Assembly (NCBI GenBank): GCA_003612335.1
Contig: RAYO01000022.1
Location: 1 to 64,000 of the forward strand
Direction: 5' to 3'
DNA length: 64,000 nucleotides
From: a bacterium 1xD42-67
GTDB taxonomy: Bacteria; Bacillota; Clostridia; Oscillospirales; Oscillospiraceae
In this document: in pieces, positions 839 through 45,330 of the stretch
How the letters are laid out: each line of letters opens with the position of its first letter
How positions within the stretch are numbered: position 1 is the first letter of the stretch
Program-made: the position numbers and the translations under genes
Notes under the pieces: model-generated
The model's database searches: none
Told to the model about the DNA's origin: nothing
What the model saw: only the letters and a program-made list of their open reading frames with translations

Positions 839-849
839 GTGTCGTTCCA

Positions 850-943
850 GCAGCCGGGCTAACATAGCATCGTCGATCTGTCATCTCGATACCTTAGTTC
901 CCATAGCTTTGCAGTCCCACAGTTTCCCATGGTTTGCCCGAGT
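850..943 (-). promoter_or_regulatory. c-di-GMP-I (GEMM-I) riboswitch aptamer, first of a tandem
   Basis: The minus strand reads GGGCAAACC, a GGAAAC-capped CCAUG/UGUGG stem, GGGACUGCAAAGC, AUGGGAACUAAGG, a GUAUCG/CGAUGC stem and finally UUAGCCCGGCUGC. This is the order of conserved elements of the class I cyclic di-GMP riboswitch. The outer CGGGC/GCCCG pair closes the fold. It points at the secreted protein that starts at 611. The segment from 944 to 1051 is GC-rich and shows no gene. Confidence 0.85.
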
Positions 944-1051
944 CGCCTCCTCGTCTCCCCGCCGCCGGCGGCGTCTGCGGCGGCGGGACAGGTGCAGGGC
1001 GGATCATCCCTCATCGCGGGCCCTCCTCTCTCGATCGTTGATATATAGGGA

Positions 1052-22193: not shown

Positions 22194-22436
22194 CTATCTT
22201 TTAAAATCTTTATAGGAAAAAGGAGCCCAATAGGTGCGGGCGCAGTCCTCGCAGAGCGTCATGGTTTGTGTATAGTCATAGTATCCAGCCCCCCAAAAGG
22301 ACTTTCCGTATTCATCGCAAGGACCAGAGTTTTCCATGACCATTGAGAGGATCGAGAGGATCAAGGCTAGTACGAAAATAGAAAGACCTAATTTTTCCCA
22401 CAAGGTAAGAGGATCCTCTTTGAGGTGTTTTACCAT
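22194..22436 (-). CDS. Small single-pass membrane protein, 80 aa
   Basis: ATG 22436 follows AAGGAGAG. The product has a charged start, one hydrophobic helix (LGLSIFVLALILSILSMVM) and an external Cys- and Tyr-containing tail (ENSGPCDEYGKSFWGAGYYD, then TLCEDCARTYWAPF). The CxxC suggests metal binding or a disulfide. GC content is well below the surroundings. I know no family. It lies downstream of the minus-strand small RNA at 22503-22567, and a 12-bp hairpin (22469-22496) stands between them. Confidence 0.7.
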   Translation of the reverse strand: MVKHLKEDPLTLWEKLGLSIFVLALILSILSMVMENSGPCDEYGKSFWGAGYYDYTQTMTLCEDCARTYWAPFSYKDFKR

Positions 22437-22468: not shown

Positions 22469-22496
22469 GCCCCAGGGGCATCACTGCCCCTGGGGC
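22469..22496 (-). promoter_or_regulatory. Perfect 12-bp hairpin in the leader of the 80-aa gene
   Basis: GCCCCAGGGGCA and TGCCCCTGGGGC pair with a 4-base loop, 33 bp before the start codon. No U-tract follows on the minus strand, so it may protect or regulate the mRNA rather than terminate. Confidence 0.5.
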
Positions 22497-22502
22497 CAGG
22501 AT

Positions 22503-22567
22503 AAAAAACCAAAACGCCGTGCAGGTGCAAAGCCTACACAGCAAAGGAGATCTTTGGCAGCACGGCC
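22503..22567 (-). ncRNA. Candidate small structured RNA (RNA2), about 65 nt
   Basis: A promoter on the minus strand (TTGTAA, 16 bases, TATTGT) points into a segment closed by GCCGUGC/GCACGGC and ending GUUUUGGUUUUUU, a good intrinsic terminator. The inside has a CAAAG/CUUUG stem and UGUGUAGGCUUUGC. No reading frame of note is present. It runs back to back with RNA1 on the other strand and shares the UGUGUAGG...CUUUGC core with it. I cannot assign it to a known family. Confidence 0.6.
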
Positions 22568-22573
22568 GCGCGG

Positions 22574-22601
22574 ACAATACAACAGACCAGGCCCTTTACA
22601 A
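22574..22601 (-). promoter_or_regulatory. Promoter of RNA2
   Basis: The minus strand reads TTGTAA, 16 bases, TATTGT. Its -35 box overlaps the -35 box of the divergent RNA1 promoter. Confidence 0.55.
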
Positions 22602-22623
22602 AAAGAGCCTCCTGTCGTATAAT
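22595..22623 (+). promoter_or_regulatory. Promoter of RNA1
   Basis: TTTACA, exactly 17 bases, TATAAT. The -10 box ends 5 bp before the closing stem of RNA1. Confidence 0.85.
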
Positions 22624-22628
22624 ATCCA

Positions 22629-22724
22629 TGCGGTGCGGCCATTGGCCGTTGTGTAGGTGGATGCGTCACCTATGCAGGCTTTGCGGGTGTTGGTAGCACC
22701 CATAAAGCTGCCGCATTTTTGTTT
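22629..22724 (+). ncRNA. Candidate small structured RNA (RNA1), about 95 nt
   Basis: The transcript is framed by a near-consensus promoter and by CCGCAUUUUUGUUUU. AUGCGG at the 5' end pairs with CCGCAU just before the U-run. Inside are hairpins CGGCCAUUGGCCG, UAGGUGgaugcgucaCCUA and GGGUG/CACCC. It has no coding potential. The promoter-to-terminator fit makes a standalone RNA likely. Possible members of known gut-Clostridia RNA classes could not be checked. Confidence 0.7.
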
Positions 22725-22732
22725 TCAGGAGC

Positions 22733-22761
22733 ATTATAACAGAAAGCGGCAGTTTTTGCAA
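22733..22761 (-). promoter_or_regulatory. Minus-strand promoter facing RNA1
   Basis: The minus strand carries TTGCAA, exactly 17 bases, TATAAT. Transcription from here would be antisense to RNA1 and could continue into RNA2 and the 80-aa gene. Confidence 0.6.
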
Positions 22762-45027: not shown

Positions 45028-45330
45028 CGGATATCGCTCCGCCTCGGCGCGGAGCAAGGCCGCACTAGTCGGGGAGTTAGCGGTGCCCTGTACCCGCGAT
45101 CCGCTACAGCGGGGATGAATCCCGGCCCCCGGACGTGTGGATGTGCCGTCTGCCCTGGATAAGCAGTGATGATAGACCGGTCCCGCGCAACGCGGCTCCG
45201 TGAACCGTGTCAGGCGGGGAACCGAGCAGCACTAAGCGGCCCGCCGCGTGTGCCGCGGGGGAACTGTTCTTGAGCCGGCTGTCCAGGTAACGGGCATATC
45301 CCGCGCTTCAAAGGCCGGTGTGCGGTCTTG
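45028..45330 (+). ncRNA. ffs: Signal recognition particle RNA, large Bacillus-type
   Basis: The Alu domain is clear at 45065-45124: CTAGTCGGGGAGTTAGCGG, GCCCTGTACCCGCGATCCGC and GGGATGAATCCC match the Bacillus subtilis scRNA. The SRP54-binding S domain lies at 45208-45231 (GTCAGG, GGAA tetraloop, AGCAGC). The 5' GGCCGCAC pairs with the 3' GGTGTGCGG. It folds with Ffh to target membrane proteins. Position just ahead of dnaX is the Bacillus arrangement. Ends are approximate. Confidence 0.93.

Follow-up and report, generated by a model that had tools for sequence, protein, structure and literature searches.

A locus that is probably organised as one small antisense RNA lying opposite the start of a gene's message, and serving as its on/off switch, was identified in the window, that is, in the whole 64,000-nt stretch of Oscillospiraceae DNA analysed here (contig RAYO01000022.1). 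The antisense RNA, RNA1, lies on the plus strand; the predicted leader, its terminator and the gene behind it lie on the minus strand (Table 1). Copies of the locus recur in gut bacteria before unrelated genes. We favour, as fairly likely, the reading that this locus is a chromosomal transcription attenuator controlled by a cis-antisense RNA and similar to those of pT181 and pIP501. Comparison of its copies in other genomes supports the structure and strand of RNA1, both promoters, the terminator, the downstream ORF, the spread of the family and the diversification of its loops, and attenuation appears to be the best reading of this well-supported architecture.

Table 1 Features of the locus in the window (positions are those of the window)
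Feature	Position	Strand	Basis or remark
RNA1, putative antisense RNA, ~96-98 nt	22628..22725	+	fold, covariation, model match
RNA1 closing stem	22629-22633/22711-22715	+	predicted fold
RNA1 hairpin H1	22635-22640/22644-22649	+	predicted fold
RNA1 hairpin H2	22650-22659/22667-22676	+	predicted fold
RNA1 hairpin H3	22677-22709	+	predicted fold
RNA1 terminal TTTTTGTTTT, after closing stem	22716-22725	+
P1, RNA1 promoter, TTTACA-17-TATAAT	22595..22623	+	11/12 score
Pm, leader promoter, TTGCAA-17-TATAAT; expected start near 22726	22733..22761	-	faces P1 from beyond RNA1 3' end
Predicted leader RNA: first ~98 nt complementary to RNA1, then spacer, then terminator	22503..22726	-	ends predicted from Pm and the terminator position
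Leader terminator ("RNA2"), hairpin 22543-22515 and U-run	22503..22543	-
First candidate antiterminator segment, opposite the 5' arm of H2 in RNA1; potential partner is terminator 5' arm 22542-22533	22650..22659	-	TGTGTAGG/CCTACACA inverted repeat
Second candidate antiterminator segment, leader GCAAAGCCTGCATAG	22670..22684	-	inverted repeat; 15 bp (two G-U) with CTGTGTAGGCTTTGC (22541-22527)
GC-rich hairpin between terminator and ribosome-binding site	22469..22496	-	12-bp perfect inverted repeat
Cargo ORF, 80 aa, Shine-Dalgarno AAGGAG 22451-22446	22194..22436	-	one membrane segment by eye

From this arrangement we infer that both RNAs are transcribed, that their loops kiss, that an antiterminator forms and in which direction the control runs. 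Pm would make the leader RNA of the downstream gene, and P1, situated within the leader, would make RNA1, which is complementary to the leader over its first ~98 nt. The apical loops of H2 and H3 in RNA1 would contact the matching leader loops and thereby confer specificity, as the variation of these loops suggests. With RNA1 unbound, leader segments complementary to the H2 region would pair with the 5' arm of the terminator, allowing read-through into the gene; with RNA1 bound, these antiterminator segments would be occupied, the terminator would form and transcription would stop early, leaving the gene off.

The first line of evidence concerns RNA1 itself. The predicted fold of positions 22629-22724, a closing stem enclosing three hairpins, has an energy of -49.2 kcal/mol (z -5.25), which 0 of 200 shuffled sequences equalled or bettered. 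In an alignment of 29 RNA1 sequences, 98.1% of the cells concerned are paired and two-sided changes occur in 14 of the 33 pairs, a combination matched by 0 of 500 shuffles, the consensus structure having been predicted on the very alignment that was scored. A covariance-model search, which covered 98 of the loci known at that stage, returned 101 matches, located in 98 loci; the final three are weak and antisense. Among these 101 rows, which were fitted to the structure and include the three weak matches, 96.2% of paired cells are kept and 30 of the 33 pairs show two-sided change; comparative alignment of this kind had been suggested as a check by an earlier note on this DNA. The window RNA1, itself part of the model, scores 89.1 bits. 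The copies are kin to each other, so that counts across them, here and below, are not independent.

A key question is which of the two strands carries the folded RNA. In the 29 sequences, taken as the plus strand, G-U occupies 148 cells against 8 for A-C, and in 98 rows, without the three weak antisense matches, 496 against 43, a type of count that favours the strand used for structure prediction. Free folding of each strand preferred plus in 29 of 29 cases (-49.8 versus -37.3 for the window). The minus strand is rejected as the folded strand of this region by these comparisons and, as judged from the aligned copies, it is as a plus-strand RNA that RNA1 is structured. The plus-strand RNA of the earlier note can thus be considered real on the basis of its promoter, the closing stem followed by TTTTTGTTTT, the folding z score and the covariation.

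The earlier note had also assigned the locus to no recognised class and had seen in its twin sRNAs a candidate for an undescribed system; RNA1 is indeed structured and outside Rfam, and the locus does look like a system, but the twin sRNAs are not sustained (see below). The Rfam scan proposed there placed no family at or above its gathering threshold on the element, either in the window or in 20 loci. When matches with E up to 0.05 were admitted for 16 loci, none reached the gathering score; the nearest was mir-3149, with a score of 36 where 100 is required, and it lies next to the element of L049. RNA2 gave as its best sub-threshold match the trpB motif (RF04312), with 20.6 bits against a cut-off of 59; known Rfam families, including this motif and raiA, are rejected as identities of the element, none being present at the gathering threshold. 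Elsewhere in the window, Rfam places a c-di-GMP-I riboswitch at 846-948 (minus strand, 54.1 bits) and a large bacterial SRP RNA at 45060-45325 (plus strand, 188.6 bits). As judged by title and the start of the abstract, a literature search on antisense and noncoding RNA in Oscillospiraceae returned no description of the family, nor, by title or abstract start, did a wider search; a term search in the main text of PMC11109978 gave no match to it.

Searches in other genomes revealed a sparse but wide distribution. An initial DNA search gave matches in 26 of 60 genomes, that of the window among them. In the taxonomic samples, each of which includes the genome of the window, model R1 matched 45 of 150 genomes (35 of 106 genera) at family level, 38 of 295 (24 of 149 genera) at order level and 12 of 291 (9 of 181 genera) at class level; model R2 matched 29 of 41 genomes of the genus, with up to 11 copies in one, and 8 of 348 genomes of the phylum sample. 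The genome of the window itself holds two copies according to R1 and four according to R2, and another genome, G180, holds 16 according to R1. A pattern search of named genomes added 111 stretches, and among the 80 of them listed are Flavonifractor, Pseudoflavonifractor, Oscillibacter, Lawsonibacter, Dysosmobacter, Flintibacter, Evtepia and Agathobaculum, with Agathobaculum butyriciproducens DSM 100391 and Flintibacter muris DSM 110149 as examples of cultured carriers. A pattern scan of viral contigs gave 0 matches, and distant blast searches found none in plasmids, with the single copy L090 as query, or in phages, with another single copy.

The copies made it possible to assess which parts of the locus are maintained together. 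The copies inspected mostly combine Pm, a promoter of the sigma-70 type, with RNA1 behind P1 and with an RNA2-like terminator, past which lies an ORF preceded by a Shine-Dalgarno sequence, and the order of RNA1 complement, spacer and terminator along the leader is the same in most of them. By sequence, two of the features that characterise the attenuator class are present, namely an opposite-strand RNA with its own promoter and an intrinsic terminator before the gene. For promoter scoring, 188 distinct copies were kept from 227 located positions by means of a 50-nt middle window, and random windows were drawn from the same loci as the copies. P1 scores at least 9/12 in 164 of 184 copies, and Pm does so in 154 of 188, compared with 17 of 467 random 63-nt windows; in the window the two promoters face each other with their -10 boxes ~110 bp apart. 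A terminator of -10 kcal/mol or lower in the leader direction was predicted in 174 of 180 copies against 58 of 467 random windows. An ORF with a Shine-Dalgarno sequence starts within 330 nt of the terminator in 158 of 176 copies in the leader direction, as against 85 of 168 on the other side and 286 of 700 random windows, and the ORF starts listed are 210-537 nt from the leader start. Pm and the ORF are additional to the features in the original description of the locus.

Several copies show further features around the leader promoter and the gene start. The Pm region contains GAACNNNNGTTC, which we take to be a LexA-like box, in 5 of 188 copies, the motif being found in 2 of 930 random windows; in three of the five (L090, L111 and L189) the cargo is TnpB/OrfB-like, according to Pfam for L090 and to a similar protein start for the other two, and the box suggests that DNA damage acts as a second control besides the antisense RNA. 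In L031, L032 and L049, palindromes noticed by eye, with 7-base arms and thus outside the criteria of our palindrome scan (arms of at least 8), overlap the leader promoter before genes including one for a GHKL-type ATPase and are possible repressor sites. GC-rich hairpins, again noticed by eye and varying in sequence from copy to copy, occupy the equivalent place before many cargo Shine-Dalgarno sequences; the one in the window is not directly followed by a U-run.

Another important question is whether the sequences of the leader and terminator are consistent with antitermination. Duplexes of the leader segment opposite the H2 5' arm with the terminator arm are stronger for cognate than for permuted combinations, both for all distinct pairs (-10.55 versus -9.34, sd 0.12; 0 of 5000 permutations; n = 145) and for variants only (-10.85 versus -8.45, sd 0.34; 0 of 5000; n = 41), examples being TGTGCATGGTG with GTGCATGGGT and TGTGTACGTA with TGTGTATGTA; in L001-L006, the pairing of GCAAAGCCTGCATAG with CTGTGTAGGCTTTGC is the best duplex. 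When the transcript was folded up to the terminator 5' arm, the mean probability of pairing between this arm and the antisense region was 0.61, versus 0.47 for shuffled and 0.52 for non-cognate regions; RNA1 sense sequence in place of the antisense region gave 0.25 but is too generous a control, the effect against the shuffled and non-cognate ones being smaller. With the RNA1-binding region blocked, the terminator became more probable, its mean over 174 copies going from 0.81 to 0.94 and its value in the window copy from 0.20 to 0.90. Blocking was without effect in L022, the second copy of the same genome (0.04 to 0.02), and had hardly any effect in L007, L045, L055, L159 and L224. Even in the unbound leader, 84% of copies have a terminator probability above 0.5, which means that any antitermination would need to be kinetic.

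Other comparisons were less favourable to this pairing. Whole-region duplexes differed little between cognate (-18.5) and non-cognate (-17.8) combinations, 94 of 174 copies beating their own non-cognate mean, and the antiterminator match was not clear by eye in L281-L285. Among mismatches between RNA1 and the terminator arm, 26 keep a wobble and 28 break it in cognate combinations, compared with 33-45 and 28-32 in non-cognate ones; a narrower wobble test on distinct pairs gave 22-26 keeping versus 31-52 breaking. The likeness between H2 and the terminator arm could thus be a matter of shared origin or of homogenisation of two similar hairpins as well as of pairing. It is this likeness between the terminator 5' arm and H2 of RNA1 that accounts for the motif shared by RNA1 and RNA2, both of which could pair with the same leader segment.

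That the wobble tests do not single out pairing speaks for an alternative in which cis-antisense RNA1 acts mainly after transcription, by RNase III cutting or message destabilisation in the manner of type I toxin-antitoxin systems, with the terminator producing a short leader species only. Toxin genes do exist among the cargo, with SymE and PemK/MazF each found in two of 141 scanned proteins (25 of the 59 families listed), and the SymE of Escherichia coli is under antisense RNA control according to excerpts of PMC4147584. We nevertheless consider this alternative unlikely. RNA1 covers the first ~98 nt of the leader only and, given the positions of the ORF starts, leaves the ribosome-binding site uncovered, unlike SymR; pure decay would have no need of the terminator that nearly all copies carry in the leader direction; and toxin families make up a small share of the cargo families listed.

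Under the preferred reading, an attenuator controlled by RNA1, the loops would carry the specificity of each copy, and paralogs within one genome are informative in this respect. In G180, 13 of the 16 copies were compared, the more divergent L068, L069 and L077 being left out. Their pairwise difference is 0.54 in the H2 loop and 0.43 in H3, where the piece compared includes the top of the stem, against 0-0.056 in the other RNA1 segments and 0.134 (66 nt) and 0.154 (60 nt) in the flanks; all 13 pairs of H2 and H3 loops are distinct. In G361, with 8 of 10 copies (the divergent L247 omitted beforehand, L103 failing the loop pattern), the values are 0.53 for H2, 0.36 for H3, 0-0.03 for the stems and 0.143 for the flank. 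Divergence of this kind is what antisense-target pairs that avoid cross-talk would be expected to show. Relaxed constraint alone would hardly make the loops more variable than the flanks, although the flanks themselves hold constrained sites such as promoters. The loop divergence also bears on the possibility that convergent transcription from Pm and P1 exerts the control by itself, through colliding polymerases or an occluded promoter, and that the RNA1 molecule does little. The two promoters are indeed convergent and both conserved; however, neither compensatory changes in the stems of RNA1 nor paralog loops that differ more than their flanks are needed for collision, and we regard this explanation as very unlikely.

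The loops themselves show some regularities. TTGG/CCAA, in either orientation, is present in 17.7% of 79 distinct H3 loops, compared with a mean of 5.4% and a maximum of 13.9% in shuffles, and YUNR is not enriched in the loops (44% versus 39%). Between close copies, such as L014 and L017 (GTTGGCGC and GCGCCAAC), the apical loop of H3 is found in both orientations, as if inverted in place. In engineered attenuators, as far as excerpts of PMC3753616 describe them, the loop alone does not set orthogonality, and the loop-loop chimeras have TTGGCG in common.

The earlier note had described the locus as divergent twin sRNAs with a common promoter region, RNA2 having its own promoter and a stem closing the whole RNA. 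Much of what it had read from the letters is present: the minus-strand hairpin with its U-run, the overlapping -35-like hexamers, and the words TGTGTAGG and CTTTGC, which do occur in both RNAs, adjacent in RNA2 and spaced by ~21 nt in RNA1. In the predicted fold, the closing stem of RNA2 pairs with RNA2's own U-run. The proposed promoter of RNA2 scores 8/12 in the window (TTGTAA-16-TATTGT), and across copies it is at background at the threshold of 9/12 or more (7 of 182 copies versus 25 of 467 random windows of 85 nt); the small excess at 8/12 or more (41 of 182 versus 55 of 467) presumably arises because its -35 is the complement of that of P1. RNA2 as an independent sRNA is rejected in view of these promoter scores, and the hairpin is better read, from the compared copies, as the terminator of a leader starting opposite the 3' end of RNA1. 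A pair of divergent sRNAs that share a -35 region but have separate promoters is therefore highly improbable in spite of the overlapping hexamers and the common motif: it is Pm, farther upstream on the same strand, that is conserved together with P1, and an ORF follows the terminator in most copies.

The genes behind the cassette were compared using 141 of 158 proteins, 16 being dropped as truncated, mis-started or doubtful and that of L124 for unknown residues. Pfam assigned 59 families, and among the 25 listed the most frequent are phage integrase (13), SLH (8), Cu_amine_oxidN1 (7), TraX (6) and resolvase (5), followed by LRR_5 and DUF4230 (4 each) and DUF6809, HATPase_c and HTH_OrfB_IS605 (3 each). 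As judged by these assignments, the cargo genes are unrelated to each other. The 80-aa protein of the window matched no Pfam family, and a recurring cargo of ~50-60 aa with a start like MxDYxKMY was noticed in L064, L072, L073, L281-L284 and L295. The PemK/MazF genes lie behind the cassettes of L159 and L216. Type I toxin-antitoxin as the rule is rejected, as toxin families account for 4 of 141 proteins among the 25 families listed, and so is plasmid copy control by antisense RNA, no rep family being among these 25. From coordinates, at least 5 of the 39 genus genomes with a polC match (that of the window, G003, G004, G021 and G034) have a cassette 3' of this gene, and the cargo differs or is decayed. 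The SpoU-like neighbour of the window was found beside polC in its own locus only, among 30 polC loci with limited flank.

These data allow a wider, more tentative proposal, which we hold to be quite possible: that the family is a cargo-agnostic chromosomal cassette. One homologous family of antisense attenuators, sparse over the phylum and reaching 16 copies per genome, would precede genes whose expression carries a cost (integrases, resolvases, TnpB-like nucleases, toxins and surface proteins), and rapid loop divergence would give each copy a private antisense-target code.

Known systems offer several points of comparison. In the repC leader of pT181, according to excerpts of PMC5703833, antisense binding leads to early termination and the 5' arm of the terminator can alternatively pair with a "pre-emptor", and excerpts of PMC3753616 describe kissing hairpins for attenuators of this type. 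The present family shares with pT181 a putative antisense RNA to the leader and a leader terminator before the gene, and may also have a pre-emptor-like pairing; the likeness is one of anatomy, and whereas RNAI/repC controls plasmid copy number through one rep gene, the family occurs on chromosomal contigs, in several copies in many genomes and before unrelated cargo. In pIP501, RNAIII acts on the repR leader by inducing a terminator-like structure, with convergent transcription also of importance, and related staphylococcal plasmids have an antisense promoter midway in a ~320-nt leader and a terminator before rep (both in excerpts of PMC5703833). Convergent promoters and a leader terminator upstream of the gene link this Inc18 system to the present family, but pIP501 uses the CopR repressor and a rep gene, and no rep was found among the 25 of 59 cargo families listed. 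Anti-Q of pCF10, likewise antisense and transcribed from a convergent promoter, causes a termination structure to form, here in prgQ (excerpts of PMC6540685), although prgQ, as presented there, is just one plasmid operon, for conjugation and controlled by pheromone, unlike a family with many cargoes. SymE/SymR shares antisense control, and a SymE-family ORF is the cargo of two copies here; SymR, in the excerpted text of PMC4147584, overlaps the start codon and blocks translation, while RNA1 lies upstream, in a leader with a terminator. We file the family as a new variety of antisense-controlled attenuators rather than placing it in any named family.

To our knowledge, most described cases of transcription attenuation controlled by antisense RNA come from a few plasmids. 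Excerpts of PMC3753616 speak of an apparent dearth of natural attenuators, orthogonal sets having been built by hand. If the reading proposed here is true, a large natural family of attenuators exists in the genomes of gut bacteria, and its sets of 13 and 8 paralogs with diversified-looking loops would allow the rules that govern antisense specificity to be tested comparatively. The reading would also point to a common layer of control for genes of mobile elements, toxins and surface proteins in Oscillospiraceae.
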